The notes below the pieces were generated by a model. It did not search any database. It was given only the letters and a program-made list of their open reading frames with translations, and was not told the DNA's origin. From assembly GCA_006384855.1 (NCBI GenBank), contig VCJN01000839.1, forward strand, positions 181,484 through 245,483: DNA of 64,000 bases. Direction: 5' to 3'. The number at the start of each line of letters is the position of its first letter. Positions within the stretch are counted from its first letter, which is position 1. The DNA is from Tetraselmis striata (lineage: Eukaryota > Chlorophyta > Chlorodendrophyceae > Chlorodendrales > Chlorodendraceae). The position numbers were made by a program, and so were the translations under genes. Of this stretch, positions 50,441 to 64,000 are shown piece by piece.

Positions 50441-50988
50441 AACTTTGTTAGGGCCTAACTATTGTTGCTTGCTGAACGCGGCGGCGAAGGCATCGGTGCG
50501 ATATCGGTTGAGTTGATGCCTTTCGCGGCGGGGGGTCTTTGCTCGTCACACCCGGCTCTAACAACCCCTATTGCCACTGCCCGCACTACGTGTGGCAAGT
50601 GGCGCTGCCCTCTAACGCTTGGGTGGGGAGGGGGGGCATCTGGTTCCACCCGTACTATACCAGACCGATGCGCGGTGTCAAGTCGTGCATGCACTTGTTG
50701 AAGCGTCCATGACGGCATCCATGGTATGCTGGGCGGGAGCTGATACGAGCGCCATCTTTTCGCGTTGATGCTCGCATGTCGGCGGCGAGCATGGCGGCTA
50801 CTCGCGCAGCTCATGCTCACACCCGATCCCCACGCGGATGATGCGTGCGCAAGAGATAATATGAACATGGTCATCAACATCACTTGGTGATGTATTTAAG
50901 ACTGTATTATTACTTTACGCTCTTGTATCCAACTCGTGTAACGATGCCCGTGGAAGTTGCCGTTTTTAGGGAGCGCGAATTCGAGCTG
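50441..50988. other. Spacer left of the large TIR element
   Basis: Open frames on both strands at 50455-50883 are unrecognised and may belong to the recombinase element. No repeat was seen. Confidence 0.35.
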
Positions 50989-51018
50989 AACAGTTATGTA
51001 ACCTATTTTGCCCCGAGG
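50989..51018 (+). repeat. Left terminal inverted repeat
   Basis: Begins AACAGTTATGTAACC and continues TATTTTGCCCCGAGG. It pairs with 63290-63319 in reverse, with 4 mismatches in 30. Further inside, AGGGTTTG occurs at both ends in inverted orientation (51048 region and 63270 region). Confidence 0.8.
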
Positions 51019-51130
51019 CACGCGGTGCATTGTGGTTAGGTCTAAATTAGGGTTTGGGGGCAGCTGTGGGATTGAAAGCTAATATGAATGCCGGTTGGTT
51101 CATTTTGTGCCAAGTCGGGGAAACTGATTC

Positions 51131-51305
51131 CGTCCAAGCAGGGACAAATCAAAAGAGTGAAGGAAACGGGATGGTTACAAGAAGTTTGCGCCATCGGGGG
51201 CTGAAACTCTGTCCAAACTGGGACAAAAAGAAGTGCGGGGGCCGTGATGGCTACAAGCAGTTTGTGCGGTCCGGGGCTGAAACTCTGTCAAAGCCGGGAC
51301 AAAAC
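51131..51305 (+). repeat. Subterminal repeats with GTCC/GGAC palindromic core
   Basis: Three units about 75-80 bp apart end in CGTCCAAGCAGGGACAAAT (51131), TCTGTCCAAACTGGGACAAA (51208) and TCTGTCAAAGCCGGGACAAA (51284). The last two are preceded by GGGGCTGAAAC. The same core occurs at the right end (63103-63120). They may be transposase-binding sites; that is an inference. Confidence 0.7.
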
Positions 51306-51334
51306 ATATGAGCGGCTAATTTTGCGGAATTGTA

Positions 51335-54300
51335 CTACATATCATCATCTTCGATCACATAATCCCCTCGGCGCTCTGCCGCCTCTTGCCTCCTCTTCTC
51401 CGCCGCTGCACGCTCTTCCCGCTCCTCTAACTCGGTCATTGGACGGGGTAGACCCGGCCACTTCTCGAAGTCACTTGGACGCAGTTGTTGAGTCTCGTCC
51501 CATGGCTTCTCTTTGAACCATGAGGTCATGCTGGACTTCATCCCAGCGATTTGCGTCTTCTGGTTGTCAATGAGGATCATCTTCAAGTTCCTGTGTGTGA
51601 ACGAGTAGCTATGATCCATAAGGTCCCACCACACGGAAAAGGCCGCAGCGACCTGGAAAAGGCGTGGCAAACCGCACAAGGCGTAAATTTTTTTTATGCT
51701 GACCCCATTAAGACACTCACCCGGGTTGCACCCCTCACGCACCGCGGTTGTCCCGGTTCCGGCTGTGACGTCGACGATTGTTGTCCCGTCTGTTGCCGCC
51801 ATCTTAAGGTGCTTGGCGAAGAGAGCGATAGGCTTTTGGTACTTGTTCACCGTCTGTCTGTTCTCGTCCTTCAATTTCGAACTGTCTTTGAAGTGACCCA
51901 ACATGATGGATGTAGAGAACCTGGAAAGGCACAACCGGCTTAGCGAGTAGAATATACAAGCCGGCTATTTTCCACGGATCAAATCTCACCTTCGGGGATC
52001 ATTGAAACGGATGTTGTCAGCTATGATGCTTGGCGGGGGCTTCCTGACGTAGAGGTAGTACTCAGCGTCGTGACGCAGAGAGCTGCCCATCTTCATCCCG
52101 CAATCCTTGGCCCAAGTCAGGACGTGATAGATGAGGTCCTCAGTTTGTTTTTGAACGGCTGTGATTGCGGATCCAAGTTGCTGGTCCGAGAGGTGAATGA
52201 AGAAATGGCACCCATCGAGAGCAGTGTGGACGTCGGAAGATCCAGTCAGGATATTCAACTGCCTGCGCGGGGGTAAATCGGGAATGAGATAAATGAAAGC
52301 ACAGTCATCTAGTACGCACCGGGGTTGTGGGGGTTGTCTTGCCTGGCGAAAGCAAACACGTCGTTGAAGTCGTCCGTACCCCACGCAGCATCCTTCGAGT
52401 CCCATGTGTGCGAACCAGCTCCGAAAAGCGCGTCGGCAATGAAGACTGTTGCCTTTTTGGCACGAACTGCCGACATGGCGTCCGCGACGAATTGTTTTGT
52501 CGCGGGAGCCTTGAAGTTCCCCTCCACAATGCAAGTCTTGCAAAGCTCCGTGTTCAACCACACCTCCTCATCCTTGTCGACCTCATGGCCCTTGGGCATC
52601 ACCGGAAGTTTCTCGGCCTGTGTGTATTAGAAAACAGATTCGGGTTAATAGCTCACAACGAAAATTCAGAAGAGCATTTGTGGTTGCTCAAGATCTTAGT
52701 TACCTTCATCGATATCCACAGCTCATTAGAAACATTCGGAGCGGAAACCGCGATAAGCTCCGGCGCACATGCCAGAAGAGCAAACTCTGTGAAGAAGGAG
52801 ATGACCAAGTCCGGCATCTGATTCTTGATGCGATACGCCTCACTCCTGATGGTGGTGTTGGTGGCCGCGATATGCTCTCGAACCGGTAGTGGTGTGAGAC
52901 AATCGGCGGATTTCATGTCCCCCCATGTGGCAGGATGGGTCAGCAAGACCATCAACGGACCGGAGCGATGAGCACCTTTGAACAAATCCTGGAACTTTCT
53001 GGGGAAGCCTGTTGGGCCGAGGTCATCAACCTTGGCTTGGAACTTGGTGATGGCGTCAAGGCGAGCGGCCGCTTGCTCATCCGACACTTTGTCATCCACA
53101 TCCATTTCGATGATGTGGTCCGAGAGATATTTCCCCAGTTCCTGGCCGGTTCGTCCGGCGTCAGCAGTTGGAGTTCCTGTCCGTGTCCCTTTGCCGTGCC
53201 AATAGCATTCATGAGCTTGATGCTTGCTCGACGCAAGAGATCGCGAAACCTCCAGGTCTCAATCATCGCGAGCCACTCCGCGTTGGTGTGCGTAACAGCC
53301 ATGGGGCCATTGTCGCCGGCATGCTTAATGTCATCCACCAGCTCGTAGAGGCTCGGGGTCACACTGTGCTCGCCTTGGATGAGCAGTCCAACCACCAGGT
53401 ACATCTGGCCCACAGGGAGATCCGCGCTGTTGCTCTGCTTGGCAAGAGACGGCTCGTCTAGCCAGGGCGCATGGGGTCCAAAGCCAACATCCTGGGTCGA
53501 AAAACAAACTTCAATACGGAGAAAGACATGTTAGTATTCCATGTGATTAAGACACTGAGGTCGGTCACAACTTACCTCCATGAGTGCGACTCGGAAGTGA
53601 GCTCTGTCTTTGCCGAAGCCGTACTTCTTATTATCGAGGATTGCATTGATAGGCTTCCGAATTGCTTCGTAAACCTTGCTCACTTCCTTCTGGGTGAGTT
53701 GCCTGCCGGAATTGAGGCGCTTGACTCTCTCGAGTTCTTGCTGGTAGTACACAAACAGGTCTCCGAGTTTGGTTATGGCTTCGCTCCATCCTCGAACACC
53801 GAGGTCCACATGCCGGTAGGCTTCAGAAATCTGCTCAAGGGGCTCAAAAACACTGCGCAAATCATTTGTCAGAATCTAACAGCGTTAACAACACGATAAA
53901 TTTTCATCATGTACGCAGCTCACCGTTGTGGGCGCGAACAGAGGTCAATCAAATTTGAGAACTCGCTGCACTTCTCATCTTTGATGCCGATCTTCTCAAG
54001 TTCAACTTGAAGAAGTTCAGACTTCTTGAACTCCTTCACTACCCTGATTTGCGGGAGTGCCCTAAAGCCGGGGCGATTTGCATCATGTTCTGCATACCAG
54101 CTCTCGAAACATCTGCGAAGGTTCTGCAGAAACAATTGCACCGATTTCAAAATTCCGAACGATTGTACCTCGATGACAAACCGTTTCGTCCCGCTGATGA
54201 CAAACCGTTTCGTCCCGCTGATGACAGACCGTTTCGTCCCACTGATGACAGACCGTTTCGTCCCACTGATGACAGACCGTTTCGTCCCGCTGATGACAGA

Positions 54301-57300
54301 CCGTTTCGTCCCGCTGATGACAGACCGTTTCGTCCCACTGATGACAAACCGTTTCGTCCCACTGATGACAGACCGTTTCGTCCCACTGATGACAGACCGT
54401 TTCGTCCCACTGATGACAGACCGTTTCGTCCCGCTGATGACAGACCGTTTCGTCCCGCTGATGACAAACCGTTTCGTCCCTCTGATGATAGACCGTTTCG
54501 TCCCACTGATGACATACCGTTTCGTCCCGCTGATGACAAACCGTTTCGTCCCGCTGATGACAGACCTTTTCGTCCCACTGATGACAAACCGTTTCGTCCC
54601 ACTGATGACAAACCGTTTTGTCCCATTGATGACAGAACGTTTTGTCCCACTGATGACAAACCGTTTCGTCCCACTGATGACAAACCGTTTCGTCTCGCTG
54701 ATGACAGACCGTTTCGTCCCACTGTGACATATGTTTAACACGCTAACGAAGAACGACTTTTGTCACACTTTAAGCCTATTTGCTGCCACGGTCAGCTTAA
54801 TATTAATTTGTGAGAATGGGGCACTCACCAGGAGTTTGTGCATCGACGTGTCTCCCACGACGGTGTGACCCGCCTCGTTGAGCTTCATAGACATGTAGCG
54901 GCAGACTTCCGGCGAGAGGCCGATGTACATCTTAGCCGACGTGAGGTGGATGCCTTTGTTGGCTTTGTAGATTTCCGGGTAGTTTTCTTTCACCATGCGC
55001 TTCGCCTCCCGTCTGTGGCTGCCGTCGATGTTGGCTTGACGCGCATTGCAGTACGTAAGAAAATCGATGATGACGTCGATCTCTGGCTTGTAGGAACTTG
55101 AATCCGCCAACCTCGGGTTCTCCCCGCCTTCGTGTGCAGCGACTAGCTCCTTGAAGTTGGCCATGGTCTGAGCGAGGGGCTCGAACTCATCGGAGAAAAA
55201 ATCTTGTACAGGGACTACTGGAAAGGACACCGAGAAATTCTCGGCGGATAGGGAAGGATTCCTCTGAATAACAAATGCAAGAAATGGATGTCAGTAAGTT
55301 GCCATGTGTATTGATTACCGGATAGGTACAACAGGTCGCGATAGGTTTTTACCTTGTAGCTTTGCGCCACCATATTGCAGTCTTGCAGCTTTGGGGAACG
55401 GAATTCAAATTCCGGCGGCGGAGCGACGAACTTATCGGATATGAAGCTGAAAATGTGAGGCAGCCCCGTATCCTTGTCGACGACGAGGTTGACTCTGTCG
55501 GCGTATAGCGTGTTGATGTCGCCACCGTGAGATGTCTTCACCTCTGGATCAGCAATCTCGACTCTGAGGTGGCCGTAAGAGATCCAGTCGACGGCACCGG
55601 TGTTGTGGAAGCCATTCAAGGCCGGCGGGACGGCCAACGCGTTGACGTATGGAAGCGCCTTCTTAAAATCCTTGTCAATGTTGGCCAAGTCATTGATGTC
55701 AATCTGACCAGACGCGAAACTTGTCAGCGCCTGAGCCAGCACATTGCGCTCGACCAAAGTCCATGCGTAGTAAGACTGGAACCGCGGCTGGAAGGAGAGT
55801 GGCGGTTGGATCGCGTGGAGTAGCAACCTCTCAAAGCTGACATCGATCATGAACTCCTTGTGCACTGTCAAGCGACAAGGTTCAAGGGAGATCTGCGGTA
55901 ACAAGCATAAGAATATTAATACTTATTGAAACACGACATTGACACGAATTCAGACATCATATAAGCTTTACTCACCTCGTAGTTTCCGGCCGAGTCCAGC
56001 TCGACGTCCTTGATCTTTCCGATACACGCGAGAAGTGGCCCCTCCGGATCATCGAAAAAGTCCTTGCCAGTCAGCAGGCTCGCCTTGTGCAATTCGATGT
56101 ACAAATAGATCTCGACCTCAGCACGTGCGTTCTTGAACCAGTGGATAGTCCAGCTCCTTGAGGTAAAGTCGCTGTAGGAGTCATCTTCTTGGGACCCGTC
56201 CCTCTCGTCAAAGAAGTCGTCGTAAGAGGCGACCGTCATCAGCTTTGTCTTCCTCTCGGGTCCGGGAGTGCCGGTGATGTCGAGAGCTTGCTTTCGCTTC
56301 TCTGCCGCCCGTTGCCTCTGTTCTTCCTCTGTGCCGAAGACCTCTTCATCCGTGCACATACTGAGGAATTCAGGAACCCTTCTCGGAGCCTCGGCAACAG
56401 GGGCTCGAGAACCAGAGGCTCCAGAACCAGACGCTTGCCCGGTAGTCGGCGCTGGAGTCTCGGGCTCGGCCTCTGGCGCCGGGTCAAGCCGAGTGGGCTC
56501 GGGCTCCGGCTCGGGCTCCGACTCCATCTGAGTGGGCTCTATTTCAGGCTCCGGCTCGGGCTCCGGCTCCGGCTCAGTGTGCTCTATTTCAGGCTCAGGC
56601 TATGTTTCCGGTACTTGAGATGGGCCTTTAGACAAAGAAGAGCCTTGATTTGGGGAACCTGTAAAGAATGAGTAGAGAGTACTCAACACACCTGCAGTGG
56701 GCGTCACGATTAACTACTGAACGGTATCGCCATACACCATCATAGCCAAGCGTAATTTTTCTTACCTGGGGATCCCGATTTACCAGCTGCTTCCGACGCG
56801 GTTGCTTGCGCCAATTTACGACCTGTTGGAACGTCAGATAACTCATTGACGAGAAAGTAATCGAAGGGAGTGAGAAGGCAGGGATTGATACTTTAAGTCA
56901 CAATTACCTGGCGTCACAATCGTCTCTGAAACCTTTTCTTTTCCCTTGGATTCCTTTGAAGCTTGAGTCGCTACTGGCTCATGTGCGCGTCCTTTCGAAC
57001 CTGTCAACACACATGATTTCAAACAATGTAAATATGACACAGTGCACTCACAAAGGCAGGGATTGATACTTTCAGTCACAATTACCTGGAGTCACAATCG
57101 TTTCTGAAACTTTTTCTTTTCCCTTGGATTCCTTTGAAGCTTTAGTCGCTACTGGCTCATGTGCGCGTCCTTTCGAACCTGTCAACACACATGATTTCAA
57201 CCAATGTCAATATGACACAGTGCACTCACAAAAATTATATGATTGGAGAGGCAAGGACCTGATTGATAGTAAGCTTGCATGAGTTTTTCGTAATCGATTA

Positions 57301-58680
57301 GCCTTCGCGCTGTCTGCATTTGAGCATCTGAGAGGACTTGTCCGCTCTTGATTCGGGCCCTCAAAAGCAAGGCGGCCGATCTTTCTCCTTGCGAGTGCGT
57401 GCCGTAAGCCGGCACTCTACCTCTTAAAAGGCTCGGTTTCCAGGGGTTACCTGATGCCTCAGCGCCGGCTCCAGCTGCAGAAGCTGAGGCTGCACGGCTC
57501 TTCTTCGCCGCCGGCTGCTCGGGCATAGAAGATGACGCCTTGTGTTTTCTCCCGACTAGCGCTCCGAGCGCATCGAATTCTTTTGCTTTCTCGGTAGGTT
57601 TTGATGTCCGCTTGGACCTTCGACCTAAAAATATCATATCCTGTCCGACCGTTTCGTCCCACTGATGACAGACCGTTTGGTCCCACTGTTGACAAACCGT
57701 TTCGTCCCACTGATAACAAACCGTTTCGTCCCACTGCTGACATACCGTTTCGTCCCTCTGATGACAGACCGTTTCGTCCCACTGATGACAGACCGTTTCG
57801 TCCCACTGATGACAGAACGTTTCGTCCCACTGATGACGAACCGTTTCGTCCCACTGATGACAAACCGTTTCGTCCCACTGATGACAGACCGTTTCGTCCC
57901 GCTGATGACAGACCGTTTCGTCCCGCTGATGACAAACCGTTTCGTCCCGCTGATGACAAACCGTTTCGTCCCACTGATGACAGACCGTTTCGTCCCACTG
58001 ATGACAGACCGTTTCGTCCCACTGATGACAGACCGTTTCGTCCCACTGATGACAGACCGTTTCGTCCCACTGATGACAAACCGTTTCGTCCCACTGATGA
58101 CAAACCGTTTCGTCCCACTGATGACAAACCGTTTTGTCCCACTGATGACAAACGGTTTCGTCCCACTGATGACAAACCGTTTCGTCCCACTGATGACAAA
58201 CCGTTTCGTCCCACTGATGACAAACCGTTTTGTCCCACTGATGACAAAACTATTTTCAATACATTATGTACTGCGGTTTAATAATGTAATGTCTTCAAGT
58301 ACTGCGCTTCACACTAATATTAAACCACTCCTTACGGCGGAGTACAGAGGTTCCCCCTGGCCGCTCTTCACCCCCACCCCCTCCCACCACCGATTAGCAT
58401 CCTTACTGCTTGCAACAGCTGCCTCGACGGGACGTAATACTACCATGCAGGACCCTGATGCCGCTCGTCTCGTTTGTGTTTATATTCCCACTCGTCTGCC
58501 TACACCTCGAGCGGTCCTAGATTACACCGCTTCTACAGGGAACCCTAACCGAACTCGCTAGATCTGGCCGCATCACGCGTCGAGCAGGCAGGCGGCTACT
58601 GTACGCGCGCGCAACTCACCTGGGGTGGCGTCGTCCTTGTCTTCCTTGTCCTTGGCAGGCTCGTTCTTCTTCGGCGCCAT
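51335..58680 (-). CDS. DNA N-methyltransferase-like protein, 15 exons
   Basis: Predicted nuclear DNA amino-methyltransferase of about 1,465 residues. Exons: 58680-58620, 57624-57451, 57178-57086, 57000-56908, 56822-56766, 56583-55976, 55892-55353, 55263-54829, 54123-53924, 53852-53576, 53491-52704, 52617-52316, 52262-51990, 51920-51743, 51652-51335. All phases agree except for one frameshift in a GGGG run near 53133. The N-terminus is Lys-rich (MAPKKNEPAKDKEDKDD); a Glu-Pro repeat lies in exon 6. Exons 7-11 are unrecognised. In exons 12-15, TVFIADALFGAG stands where motif IV (DPPY) is expected, followed by LTWAKDCGMK, AEYYLYVRK, KPIALFAKHL and IVDVTAGTGTTA|VAAAFS (motif I). Motif IV before motif I is the beta-class order of N4-C/N6-A methylases. 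An alternative exon 6 start (56658) meets a TAG at 56600, so the acceptor at 56583 is preferred. The altered DPPY raises doubt about catalysis. Confidence 0.72.
54172..54723. repeat. 24-bp tandem repeat array A (~23 units)
   Basis: The unit is CCGTTTCGTCCCACTGATGA plus four bases (CAAA or CAGA), 24 bp long. It lies wholly within the intron between methylase exons 8 and 9 (54828-54124). Variation is mostly at two sites (CACTG/CGCTG and CAAA/CAGA). Confidence 0.97.
56908..57178 (-). repeat. Duplicated exon-intron unit in the methylase gene
   Basis: Exons 57178-57086 and 57000-56908 are nearly identical (SKGRAHEPVAT-K/Q-ASKES, then SETIVTPG), and so are the introns between them. The tandem duplication is about 178 bp long. 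Each exon is 93 nt and phase-neutral, so the copy number can change without harm to the frame. Confidence 0.88.
57646..58249. repeat. 24-bp tandem repeat array B (~25 units)
   Basis: Same unit as arrays A and C. It lies in the first intron of the methylase gene (58619-57625). Toward 58130 units change CGTCCC to TGTCCC. Confidence 0.97.
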
Positions 58681-59220
58681 TCTGGCGGTAGGTAGGTTGA
58701 CGCGGTAGATGAGCGTGTTTCTTGGTGGGAAGCGGTGAGGGAGAGGTGGAAATGACGTGGTTTCCGTCTGCCGCCGCTCTGACCCCTGCTGGACCAACGG
58801 CGCGCGTGCGCACACTATAGTGTACCTCGTCGTCGTCATCAGGTTCATGTATTTTGCACCGCGACGAATATACAGGGCTAACTACTGCGACTATATATTA
58901 CTATTACTGGAAGATAAAATATTCCCTACTCGAGAGTCATAACGGTACGAGAGTACAGTGGCGTGGCAATAATATTCCTTCATGGGATGATATATTCCTT
59001 GGATTGGATTCGGGTGTACTTACTAGTATAGAACTATTTCCGACATACGAAAGAAGCACGAAATAACACGGTATTTGAGTCATCAATTATTTTGACCCGT
59101 ACCTGGATATTATGCACCCCGGTCAACGGCCCGTCCGAGAACGGTCATCGGCCGTCACTCTTCCTCACCACAGATCACAGTCCTCCCCCCCCCCCCCCCC
59201 ACCCACTCGCCCCGCGCTGC
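58681..59220. promoter_or_regulatory. Shared divergent promoter region
   Basis: 540 bp separate the start codons of the methylase gene (58680, minus) and the transposase gene (59221, plus). A run of about 16 C lies at 59185-59200. TATATATTA at about 58892 is AT-rich, but no motif can be assigned. Head-to-head spacing suggests joint control. Confidence 0.45.
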
Positions 59221-60055
59221 ATGGCGGCGGTCGAAAGCATGGCCTCTTCTCCAGGATCCGGCGCGTCGGACACTACAGTTACATTACCGCTGTGTTCGTG
59301 CCGCAGTGGGTACTCGTGTGATTGCGACGCGCGTGCGAGTGATCGTAAGGAGCCTGAGAAAAGGAAGTACACGTGGGGCAAGGGCTGCGATGAGGTCGCC
59401 GAAAGCGGTAATGGCAAGGTCTCGTCTCTGATCAGCAAGCGCACCTCTCGCGATTGTATCCGCCTCATGCTCGCCAAGGAGGCTAGCGAGCAGTCGCCAT
59501 GCTGTTCGCGCAAGTGCGTGCACAAGCTATACACACAGTGCGGAGAGGCCCTCGTTGATGCCGTGTTGGACCGTGCGTTGACCGTATACTCTGGCAATCA
59601 GAACCGCTCCTTTGACCGGCTCGCTCAGGTTCTCAGGGGTGGCTACGAGTCGGCATCCGACAAGTTCGATTACATGTTCGATCACGGTGGCTACTTGCGA
59701 TCTTTCGATCATCGCGGCCCCATCTACACGTGTGGGCGTGCGTGGGAGGTCTTGCATCAGGTCTCGAAACACAGACGTCTCGTGATCCAGCGGTCGGTGG
59801 TGGATAACGAACCCACGTACATCAGGCAGCGCAAGCAATACGAGAGCAGACAGACCGGACCGAGGGAGCATGTGCGCATGTTTCTCGAGCACTTCTTCTC
59901 GGATGACCTCGGTCACGTCGAGATCATGCCTTTTCATGACGGAAACAGCGAGACCTTCAAGAAGCACCTACCTCCCTGGATGACCAAGATTTGCGTCTAC
60001 TACTACTACAAGTCGTGGGCCGAGGACGACAACGCCATTCTCCGTGGTGAGGCCC

Positions 60056-60475
60056 ATTTTGTCCCACTGATGACATACCGTTTCGTCCCGCTGATGACAA
60101 ACCGTTTCGTCCCGCTGATGACAAACCGTTTCGTCCCACTGATGACAAACCGTTTCGTCCCACTGATGACAAACCGTTTCGTCCCGCTGATGACAAACCG
60201 TTTCGTCCCACTGATGACAGACCGTTTCGTCCCACTGATGACAAACCGTTTCGTCCCACTGATGACAAACCGTTTTGTCCCGCTGCTGACAGACCGTTTT
60301 GTCCCGCTGTTGACGAACCGTTTCGTCCCACTGATGACAAACCGTTTTGTCCCGCTGATGACAAACCGTTTTGTCCCACTGATGACAGAACGTTTTGTCC
60401 CGCTATCGCCAGAACGTTTAGTCCCACCGACGCCGGACCGATTTCGTCCCACTGATGACAGAACGTTTCGCACCG
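60056..60475. repeat. 24-bp tandem repeat array C (~18 units) with decaying edge
   Basis: Same unit as arrays A and B, in the first intron of the transposase gene. From about 60400 to 60715 the units become progressively degenerate (spaced GTCCCA words remain). Confidence 0.95.
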
Positions 60476-62428
60476 CTCATGGCAAACCGTTTCGTCCCAC
60501 CGACCGCAAAAGTATTTGTCCCACATAATTAGCCGATATCGTCCCACTGCAGAGAGAACGTCTTGTCCCACTGCTGAGATACGGTTTTGTCCCACTACTG
60601 ACATACCGTTTCGTCACACTGATGACAGATAGTTTCGCCATGCTGATTACAGAATTATTCACCCACTACCGATATAATTATTTCGACCCACTTCAGACCG
60701 AACTTTTCTGTCTCGCATTATGAGACCTTATTTGTATACCGACATATCACGCCCCTGCCCCTTTGTAGATTTGGCTACCGAGAGCGATGTGAAGCTCGCA
60801 TCGTTCGACACTTTCCGCCGGACTTGGAAGGAAGACTTCCCGGATGTCACCACGCCGAAGGTGAAGCGATTCAGCCACTGTCCCATATGCGCGGCGGGCA
60901 AAGCACTCAGAGACCAAGCTCGCGAGATTTGCACAAAGGACATGACGCCAGAGGAACGTCAAGTGCACCGTCAACATCAGCAGCTGGTGAGGCGTCAGGT
61001 CAGAGCTGAGCAGAAGGTACACCTCGAGAGAGTGCGCCAGGAACGAAGGGATCTGAACAACGCCGTCTTCCAGTCGCGCCTTGGCCATGGAAACTTCTTC
61101 TTCTTCGAAATTGATAGCATGGACTCCGCGAAGACCCTGCTGCCTCACTGGGTTCGCATCCCCAAGATTGTGAAGCCCGACATGCTCCTCAAGTACCACC
61201 TCACCTGTGTGAAGTACGACGGATACCGCCCGGACGACATCTACTACTACACCAACACCATCCCCCACGATTCGTCCACGACGTGCACTCTGATATGGAT
61301 CACGATCATGAAGGTGAGCTCGTTAGCCTCCCGATAGGTTCGCCGTGGTTGTCCGGTAGCCATGGACTGATGAAAGCTTGTCTGCGATGCAGGAAATTCA
61401 ACACCGTGGTAGAAAGATTCCGTAGCCAGGATCCAGATGGACAACACAAGAATAGGAACGTGGCGGCCCTCTGCAATTGGCTTGTGTCTATCGGCATCTG
61501 CGACGTCATTCATTTGGTCTTCTTGCCTGTCGGGCACACTCACGAACGGGTTGACCAGATCTTCAGCCGCATCAGTCTTGCGCTATCTCGCAGCTCCGCC
61601 TACACAATCGAGGCCTTTCTTGACTTGGTGGCGAAGGCATTCTCGCCCACTCCGGAGATTGCTGAGCTCTCATTCTCCCTCGACTTTCTCTGAGTGGTTA
61701 AGGCCCCATTTCCAAGACCACATTCAGGACATCAGTAAGCCGCACAAATTCGAGATGACCCGTGACGACGCCGCCGCGTCTGGCGGCTCGTTGCGCACCG
61801 CCTTGTGGTCCAACACACCGCTTTCTGAGCCTGTGCAGATCTTGAAGAGCGCGCCAACTGGGACGCCCGAGATTCGTGCGGGCCGGCCCCTTTTGTACGC
61901 TCTCTGCGACAAAAAGAAGCCCGACGCGGTGAAGGTCCAGAGGTACTTGGATGATTTCAAGAAGGTCAGGTCGTACATCACGGACCTGGCGGTCCAGTGG
62001 CACTTCTCCCCAGTCGAGCGCGAGAGCTGGAAGAATCTGCTCGACGACTTGGATGAGATGCAAACTGCTCCTTCGGCAGCTTTCTCCGGGTTCTGGCCGC
62101 AACGGAAAGAGGAAGTTGACGACTTCTTGCGCGAGCACGGGCAGACCGTGCCTGCTGAGGCACGTCACACGATGGCTACCAACGCAGACCTCAACAATGC
62201 CGAAGCCGCTCGCGTGGAAGCCGAGGTTCGTGCTCAAGTGCTTCAAGATGACAGCGCCTTCCGGGGAGTTCACGCCGGCGCCAAGGAGAGGCTTCATGAC
62301 AACACATCGCCCAGCGATGCAAAGGGCTCGAACCTCGTTGTCATCGACGTCTCCGATGTGAGTCCCATTGTTTGTCATTTTTGTCCTTTACGGGACAAAA
62401 CAATTTGGTTCTTCTACCTTGCTTGTTA

Positions 62429-62450
62429 TTTTGTCCCAGCTGGGACAAAA
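62429..62450. repeat. Perfect 22-bp palindrome in last transposase intron
   Basis: TTTTGTCCCAG and its exact inverse meet without a spacer. An imperfect relative (TTTTGTCCTTTACGGGACAA) lies about 50 bp upstream. The core is the same GTCC/GGAC word as in the subterminal repeats. Confidence 0.9.
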
Positions 62451-63063
62451 ATGGCGTGGCGTCTCGCTCGGGACTAACATAGCTCGCGGTCTTGGTCATC
62501 GTTAGGTGCATGAGGAAGACAAGTGTCCTGAAACTCTTGGTGATTGGGAGTCGAGATTCGTCATCGGGCTTGTGAAGTCGCGCGAGACTACCGAAGACAC
62601 GTTGACCGTGGCCGTATACGAGCCCTTCCATGCCGATGCAAAGGGCAAACCCCTCATGCCCCTATGGTTGTACGCGCAGACAAAAGGAGGGAAGAAGCCA
62701 GTTGACACAAGCTGGAGAAGTGCCTGACGCTTCCTTGGAAGCTTGTTGAAGCCGTCCCCCTATCGTACGCGAAGGCCATCCACGACGCGTCGGGAAGTCG
62801 AGAGGTGTTCAACGAGGACGGCACCATGGTCAGAAAGAAGTGGTACGGTAAAAGCGTCCAAGTCGTGAAGACATATGCGCAAACTGGGTGGCAAATCAGC
62901 CAGCCACGAAACAACTGCGTCCACGTCATGTCAACCACCCCAGCGCAACGCAAACCCGGCGGAGTCGTCAAGTTTAATGCAGCCACGAAAAAGGACTTGC
63001 TTGAGTTGGGGATGCTCAACGAATAAACTATCAGCAACGTCTTGTGGCTAGCTAGCCGCTGGA

Positions 63064-63068
63064 TGTAA
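63064..63068 (+). terminator. Candidate polyadenylation signal TGTAA
   Basis: It lies 38 nt after the TAA of the transposase gene, a usual distance for the chlorophyte signal. Confidence 0.4.
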
Positions 63069-63289
63069 TAATCATAATAAATATTGATTTCATTGCCTCA
63101 TCTTGTCCCATTTTGGACAAAATGCTCCAAAACCAACATTGGATATGCGTCGCGGCTGGCCTTCATGCTGTTGAATGCTGCACTGCACCCAAGGTCTACA
63201 AACCCAAGCTACATCACCAGTGAGTCTTAAGTACTGATAGTAAACCCGGGAACTAGGGTATAAACAAACCCTACGGTGCAAAATGAATT

Positions 63290-63319
63290 CCACGGCGCAA
63301 AATAGGTTAAATTACTGTT
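63290..63319 (-). repeat. Right terminal inverted repeat
   Basis: The reverse complement begins AACAGTAATTTAACC and continues TATTTTGCGCCGTGG, matching 50989-51018 at 26 of 30 positions. Confidence 0.8.
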
Positions 63320-64000
63320 GTTGGCACGCTCGCGATGGTACGTCAAAATGGGGCCATGCGGTCTTGCCGGCCCTCGCCCCTGCCAATATTTCCCAATATC
63401 ACCAATTAATAATCATCAACATCCGCGTAGCAGCCATGATGTTATGTCGATATGTATATATGTCTACATATCGATATTGATACACCCCCACAAAAGTCTT
63501 GCCCCCCAAAATCACACAACACGCGGGAATTCGCTGTTGCGCGGGCAGGGTATACGGCATTATCATTGGTTACCATTCAACCAACCGCAGGTACACTCAA
63601 TAGCCATTGAGTGCGTCGTCTTAAATTGGTATAGTGCGTCGAGTGTGTTGTGCTACTAATGGACTGCAATTCTAGGCCCTTTCGAGCACTGCCAAAACTG
63701 TAGGGGGGTAGTGGCGCGCGTGCACGGCTGCGATGCCCTGTCATCACCCAAATGGCACGACACTCCCACAATTGATTCATTCACTATCATATTATCCGTG
63801 CGTAAAAGCTTGGGGGCATGCGCAACCCCATGAAGATGAAACGCGTGCACTCGCATTGTGCACTTTTCTGTTGAAAAGCGGCATTTTTCAGTTTTAGCGG
63901 AAAAATCACTACAGAAAATGATGCATCAGCGCGACGTTCGGAGGGTGCGCTGCAACCAGAGTCATGGAAGCTAAGCTTCGGTATAAGTAAAAGACTACAC
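63320..64000. other. Right flank, nothing recognised
   Basis: No gene, repeat or RNA was recognised in the last 680 bases. Confidence 0.45.

Follow-up and report, generated by a model that had tools for sequence, protein, structure and literature searches.

Analysis of a 64,000-nucleotide stretch of the Tetraselmis striata genome (contig VCJN01000839.1, positions 181,484 to 245,483; hereafter the window) revealed a DNA transposon carrying two divergent genes, one with a DUF7869 core and the other with a predicted beta-class amino-methylase domain at its C-terminal end. That a single transposon owns both genes is practically certain, and the element is most likely an autonomous DNA transposon with terminal inverted repeats that has been active recently in Tetraselmis, a marine, free-living green alga. 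It is, on balance, probable that the DUF7869 protein is its DDE (Asp-Asp-Glu) transposase and that a companion protein with a methylase fold acts on the element's own DNA. Coordinates are collected in Table 1.

Ends, copies and target duplications

The element was 12.3 kb long and was bounded by inverted arms of 30 nt each, complementary at 26 of 30 positions (87%) with 12,271 nt in between. The original prediction, made from the letters of the window, had taken these arms for the ends of a mobile element, and they recurred as the ends of a repeat family when the genome (224 Mb, 2903 contigs) was searched for copies. The left 212 bp returned 390 first-look candidates, of which the best 40 were scored and were 97-100% identical; the right 220 bp returned 400, and the best 40 scored were about 100% identical. 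Ten loci were read at length: six with both ends pre-matched at the right spacing, three left-end matches and the window, the choice of the six by paired ends biasing the sample toward complete copies. The left end of the nine other copies started with AACAGTAATG[TC]AACC. Both genes were present in all eight copies that ran from end to end (C2669, C1470, C809, C154, C54, C821, C1513 and the window). Copy C450, cut by a contig end, retained the minus-strand gene and most of the plus-strand gene, C2891 held only the first 2.2 kb of the element, and an eleventh locus, C421, was cut by a contig end at once. The predicted mobile DNA element owning both genes was thus recovered elsewhere with the same ends, and none of the outcomes set beforehand as refuting it occurred. 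Both genes were broken in the window copy; intact copies exist elsewhere in the genome, at least two of them with both reading frames open. An origin of the inverted repeat by chance was rejected, and so was bacterial contamination, given the 15 spliced exons, the many copies and the matches named in the algal proteome.

Twenty further left ends were sampled, with the far-side sequence within reach for 15. The table of target duplications held 25 rows, 21 of them with both ends, the right end being out of reach in four. An exact 4-bp duplication was found in 13 of these 21 copies, compared with 1 of 420 shuffled flank pairs. Three copies, the window included, matched at three of the four flank letters, and five matched less; the flanks of the window copy are possibly a decayed 4-bp duplication. 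In C2423, scored as a miss, the start of the left end was doubled and the flanks mismatched under either reading. Because near-identical ends are shared and flanks match across copies, we regard the unit as a mobile, recent element that is bounded by terminal inverted repeats and makes 4-bp duplications. That two unrelated repeats came to lie side by side by chance, or one inside the other, is scarcely credible as the origin of the pair. Nesting seems to occur in this genome (locus C1400, below), but as an origin it is refuted by the same ends, the same order and both genes in 8/8 end-to-end copies and by the duplications that flank the whole unit.

The plus-strand gene and its DUF7869 core

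The divergent arrangement of the two genes stood as foreseen, with 15 exons on the minus strand and four on the plus strand. The plus gene of the window carried one deletion and frameshifts, and the frame was open at 956 amino acids in C154, C809, C2669 and C821. The joined gene of C154 matched DUF7869 (PF25273) with 149.5 bits (cut-off 26), which confirmed the predicted DUF7869 core with the motif GHTHERVDQIFS, and GHTHE was invariant in alignment A4. Several jgi/Tetstr1 proteins with TSEL names matched the core of the protein along its full length at 100% identity. Structure modelling suggested a ribonuclease H (RNase-H)/DDE core, and the assignment of DUF7869 as a probable DDE transposase is well supported by the modelled fold, the apparently conserved acids and the target duplications. 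Viral contigs gave 29 matches to the DUF7869 pattern, none of them a relative, and the literature search found no paper mentioning DUF7869 among those within reach.

The minus-strand gene and its methylase domain

The minus gene of the window had a stop in exon 6 and a frameshift in exon 11. Its frame was open in three of the eight modelled copies, at 1569 amino acids (C154, C54) or 1580 amino acids (C2669). The donor of exon 12 was placed 4 nt downstream to hold the frame; the stretch past this junction was skipped in the models P0001 and P0002 and present in P0040 and P0043. When exons 12-15 of C154 were joined, they scored 31.8 bits against N6_N4_Mtase (PF01555, cut-off 26.7), so that the profile search placed them in the family originally proposed. 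Of the 221 positions of the profile, the match covered 47-199 and left out the end with motif IV. The whole minus protein also passed the cut-off (28.2 bits), and exons 14-15 read through alone fell below it (21.1 bits). Joining of the exons was required, because unjoined frames scored below the cut-off; only the frame of exons 14-15, out of ten unjoined reading frames, reached PF01555 at all. P0001 scored above the cut-off (27.5 bits) and P0002 and P0043 below it (23.6 and 20.8 bits). Exons 12-15 also matched the phage methylase family phrog_67 at an expectation value (E) of 4e-9.

The protein matches of the methylase were labelled jgi/Tetstr1 in 42 of 44 cases, and P0043 was metagenomic. A phmmer search of the methylase domain against PDB sequences gave nothing at E up to 1, and the methylase-family profile A6 gave four matches only, with E of 0.12-0.33. 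The AlphaFold model of P0043 had a mean predicted local distance difference test (pLDDT) score of 40.3 and was left out of the fold search. No Pfam family was matched outside the methylase domain at E up to 1; the first ~330 residues were of low complexity by eye, with basic and Glu-Pro-rich stretches and one exon in two copies. The profile scores support a minus gene that encodes a protein ending in a putative beta-class N6_N4_Mtase domain.

Some variation was seen in and beside this gene. A 178-bp tandem duplication (window 56875-57230), also present in other copies, doubled one small exon. A 119-bp stretch between the two genes (window 58488-58606), possibly part of a promoter, was single here and a tandem pair in other copies. 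Copy C821 was longer by 1.4 kb around exon 8 and intron 8, ~3.9-5.4 kb into the copy, possibly through another insertion.

Methylase motifs and the catalytic question

The claim of a beta-class methylase held for the domain. The motif order IV, X, I was found, with motif IV in exon 12 and motifs X and then I in exon 14, an order that aligned weakly to that of M.MboIIA, but motif IV read DALFG, not DPPY. Motif X (QKPIAL) and motif I (D[VL]T[AC]GTGTTAV), the latter binding S-adenosylmethionine (AdoMet), were clear in all four methylase lineages, which were ~29-54% identical. Motif IV of the minus protein was IADALFGAGSHTWD, and the canonical [DNS]PP[YFW] was found neither there nor in the three other lineages. 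The family profile aligned this stretch with DPPYN...WD of M.MboIIA (1g60), weakly (E 0.22). Fifteen genomic copies had DALFG (14 copies) or DAPFG (one copy); the metagenomic relatives P0043 (33% identical) and P0121 had ADANYG and ADSSYG, and the second family of this genome, described below, had ADSNYG. All four lineages have kept the motif IV acid, its aromatic residue and G and the downstream WD, and have lost both prolines. Beta-class relatives were also found at 25 or more loci in viral contigs, matched mostly on motifs X and I. Among the matches listed, 14 had DPPY, 10 had D[LF]PY and one (L047) was unreadable at motif IV; a further apparent DPPY, in L048, was a false match. The second proline (D-x-P-Y) was kept in 24/24 readable viral relatives.

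These sequences bear on two alternatives. The companion could be a pseudo-methylase, with the fold and AdoMet pocket kept and catalysis lost, whose part in a transposition complex is to bind DNA or to help in assembly as a subunit. The DALFG, DSNYG, DANYG or DSSYG of the four lineages, set against the D-x-P-Y of the viral relatives, speaks for it, but a dead site need not have kept the motif IV acid, aromatic, G and following WD together with motifs X and I; we rate it as a substantial possibility, clearly below even. The second alternative, a narrower form of the favoured reading with which its probability overlaps, is an active N4-methylcytosine/N6-methyladenine (4mC/6mA) methylase that marks the element and so changes host silencing or repair. 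The conserved AdoMet motif and motif IV acid and aromatic residue agree with it, as does the analogy with retrotransposons that bear a DNA methyltransferase (DNMT), described in the available part of PMC5890265; the non-canonical motif IV does not, and it appears somewhat unlikely. In the 4mC methylase of bdelloid rotifers, a change of SPPY to APPA, in which both S and Y are replaced, is reported to abolish activity in the accessible portion of PMC8885841. Transfer of methyl groups to DNA by the minus protein would be an unproven activity.

A second family and signs of selection on the methylase gene

Further DUF7869 loci were sought with P0093 (31-37% identical to the transposase of the element) as the query, and the best 73 of 1038 candidates were scored. 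Sorting by identity gave 31 loci in group A and 27 in group B. The search with PF01555, in which the best 150 of 259 candidates were scored, gave, in addition to the first family and five stronger single matches, 24 loci that scored 34-39 bits and some that scored lower. These five, at 61-117 bits (C1010:99804-100724, C2009, two on C1597, and C803), lay outside both families and may be host genes, virus insertions or contaminants.

When the 27 group B loci were compared with 38 methylase matches, at least eight pairs on the same contig were found, and all eight were divergent. Six of the eight pairs were spaced by 10.0-12.2 kb and the others by 20.9 and 24.7 kb. The 24.7-kb pair (C1400:56824-81874) apparently contained a copy of the first element inserted in a group B element, between the transposase and methylase genes. 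The group B transposase (C1519) was ~31% and the methylase (C401) 29% identical to those of the first element. C401 was the only methylase read among the 24 loci at 34-39 bits and the weaker ones, and its ends were read as well: the unit spanned 15.9 kb between inverted ends (AACATT...) at positions 137295 and 153164, with 20/30 ungapped matches and an aligned score reached by 2 of 2000 shuffles. The C401 end was matched on C1519 where the homology between copies stopped. No 4-bp duplication was found at the one group B copy examined (flanks gcat and acgg), where the end of a neighbouring copy was 75 bp away. Because two distant families keep the same divergent pair, the pair is old and cannot be put down to accident in a single family.

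Short windows around C385, C1519 and C1345 held no methylase. The idea of other DUF7869 families without a methylase was dropped, since the group B contigs hold methylase loci beyond such short windows. Beside one group A DUF7869 gene, reverse-transcriptase-like and integrase-like frames of a retroelement were recognised by eye (L088, 1898-4574).

An 85-amino-acid stretch of exon 12 was free of stops in 141 of 150 copies scored (the best 150 of 331 candidates). Seven copies reached a dS of 0.1 or more, and in these the ratio of nonsynonymous to synonymous divergence (dN/dS) over exons 12-13, relative to C154, was 0.28-0.79. These values support constraint on the methylase gene on the longer branches only. 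Alternatively, the gene could be a chance passenger, dispensable for movement. Other transposons do carry dispensable cargo, and the group A loci showed no methylase match on their contigs (0/31 among the matches listed); the stop-free exon 12 stretch and the retention of the pair in two families this divergent make a passenger improbable.

Octamer, intron arrays and palindromes

The 24-bp intronic repeat described at the outset in both genes was borne out, with arrays in introns 1 and 8 of the minus gene and intron 1 of the plus gene. The octamer TTTTGTCC/TTTCGTCC, common to these arrays and the subterminal palindromes, occurred 71 times in the window element and once in the other 51.7 kb; 64 of the 71 were in the three arrays and seven outside, in the subterminal motifs and in two palindromes of the last plus intron. 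The subterminal motifs lay at the same places in 8/8 end-to-end copies. The orientation of the octamer was nearly uniform along the element in the eight copies counted (66 plus and 5 minus in the window), and this uniform direction, despite genes on opposite strands, fits a role at the level of DNA. The repeat pattern fits the intron arrays as candidate binding sites for the transposase or the companion protein.

Proposed mechanism

In the mechanism we favour, the DUF7869 protein would act as the DDE transposase, binding the ends and inserting the element with a 4-bp stagger. The divergent gene would supply a companion protein with a C-terminal beta-class amino-methylase fold, which would recognise TTTYGTCC, the motif that recurs in the element's intron arrays and subterminal palindromes. 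The companion would methylate this motif or hold it with AdoMet bound, and would thereby tune transposase access, silencing or repair. We infer that the methylase-fold protein may bind AdoMet and the repeats of the element and tune transposition or silencing; whether it would act on the element at the DNA level is evenly balanced.

Several results weigh against this reading. Both prolines of motif IV are missing from the four lineages, and catalysis may be lost for that reason. The seven copies with low dS gave noisy dN/dS values (0.28, 0.39, 0.85, 1.12, 1.97, 3.17 and one not computable), and exon 13 contained a stop in 2 of 15 copies. In a Foldseek search with the transposase model, no PDB structure matched at an E of 0.001 or below. 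The arrays could also be minisatellites that grew passively from one site. Finally, no group A locus (C652, C385, C1024 and 28 others) had a methylase match on the same contig among the matches listed, so this class of transposase may not always need a methylase; the result is not proof of absence, because only the best-scoring candidates of both genome searches were scored.

More broadly, and only tentatively, the DUF7869 transposases and a distinct amino-methylase subfamily with motif IV D[AS][LNS][YF]G might form an old two-protein transposition system and a transposon superfamily of its own, with the two genes kept as divergent neighbours in Tetraselmis and perhaps in other hosts. The methylase-like protein of such a system would read AdoMet or mark the intron arrays of binding sites.

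Table 1. Positions, strands and remarks for the features of the element in the window; splice sites were inferred from sequence
Feature	Position	Strand	Remark
Left flank gctg	50985..50988		3/4 letters equal to right flank gttg (63320-63323)
Left terminal inverted repeat	50989..51018	+	begins AACAGTTATGTAACC
Two left subterminal GGGACAAAA motifs	51208..51305		233 and 309 bp from left end
Minus gene, 15 exons	51335..58680	-	broken in window copy
Minus exons 1-5	58620-58680, 57259-57624, 57086-57178, 56908-57000, 56766-56822	-	
Minus exons 6-10	55976-56658, 55353-55892, 54829-55263, 53924-54168, 53576-53852	-	
Minus exons 11-15	52704-53491, 52316-52617, 51990-52262, 51743-51920, 51335-51652	-	
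Exons 12-15, putative beta-class N6_N4_Mtase domain	51335..52617	-	PF01555 31.8 bits
Motif I (AdoMet-binding) VDVTAGTGTT	51746..51775	-	
Motif X region NKYQKPIAL	51821..51847	-	
Motif IV region VFIADALFGA	52417..52446	-	DALFG where DPPY expected
24-bp array, minus intron 8	54170..54760	+	22 units counted
24-bp array, minus intron 1	57640..58260	+	24 units counted
Plus gene, 4 exons, probable DUF7869 transposase	59221..63026	+	broken in window copy
Plus exons	59221-60046, 60769-61313, 61393-62357, 62506-63026	+	
24-bp array, plus intron 1	60050..60720	+	21 units counted
GHTHERVDQIFS core	61532..61566	+	probable third catalytic acid
Two TTTTGTCC..GGACAAAA palindromes, plus intron 3	62376..62453		one perfect 22-bp palindrome
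Right subterminal TTGTCCCATTTTGGACAAAA palindrome	63102..63124		205 bp from right end
Right terminal inverted repeat	63290..63319	-	same right end in other copies

Relation to known systems

By its anatomy, the element is presumably nearest to Sola2 among the named groups, likened to it by description and not by sequence. In the part of PMC3627910 that was available, Sola2 elements share with it the 4-bp duplications, short imperfect terminal inverted repeats, a transposase of similar size (888 amino acids in one) and protist hosts; the duplications of Sola2 are AT-rich, whereas those of Tetraselmis are not evidently so.

The element is a variation on a known theme, because transposon-borne DNA methylases are already in print (PMC5890265, PMC3627910, each in the portion accessible); the original description of such methylases as rare was fair, with these examples to be set beside it. 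According to the same portion of PMC5890265, DIRS retrotransposons carry a Dam-like adenine methylase and are thus, like the Tetraselmis element, eukaryotic mobile elements encoding an amino-type DNA methylase, but they move by reverse transcription and a tyrosine recombinase, in place of the probable DDE-type transposase, terminal inverted repeats, 4-bp duplications and PF01555 methylase found here. DNMT-bearing long interspersed nuclear element (LINE), DIRS and Gypsy elements are described there in Symbiodinium and K. nitens, the K. nitens element with purifying selection reported, and marking that alters host silencing or repair has been proposed for them (PMC5890265). They too place a methylase inside multi-copy algal elements, but as C5-cytosine methylases in retroelements, whereas the Tetraselmis element is a DNA transposon whose methylase-like protein has an amino-methylase fold and a changed motif IV. 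Mariner elements of giant viruses, as presented in the available text of PMC3627910, are likewise terminal-inverted-repeat DNA transposons with a transposase and a methylase; they differ in their TA targets, in a gene of its own for an endonuclease and in methylase domains of the Methyltransf_26 or C5 kind, whereas the Tetraselmis element has a cellular algal host and a DUF7869 transposase. The bdelloid N4CMT is a PF01555 beta-class methylase in a eukaryotic nucleus, said in the accessible part of its description to have no eukaryotic homologs; it is encoded by the host and has a chromodomain and the canonical SPPY, in contrast to the transposon-borne methylase with DALFG (PMC8885841). No description of the pair of DUF7869 and methylase was found in the literature search, which reached its sources in part.

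Significance

Transposons are usually targets of DNA methylation. Here a transposon that still seems recently active has held on to a gene with a methylase fold; the gene shows signs of selection and is present in at least two distant families within the same alga. For DUF7869, an uncharacterised domain, a function as a transposase of DDE type that makes target duplications of 4 bp becomes likely. The element would allow a direct test of whether a mobile element can write or read DNA marks of its own, and whether an amino-methylase fold can work without the catalytic prolines.

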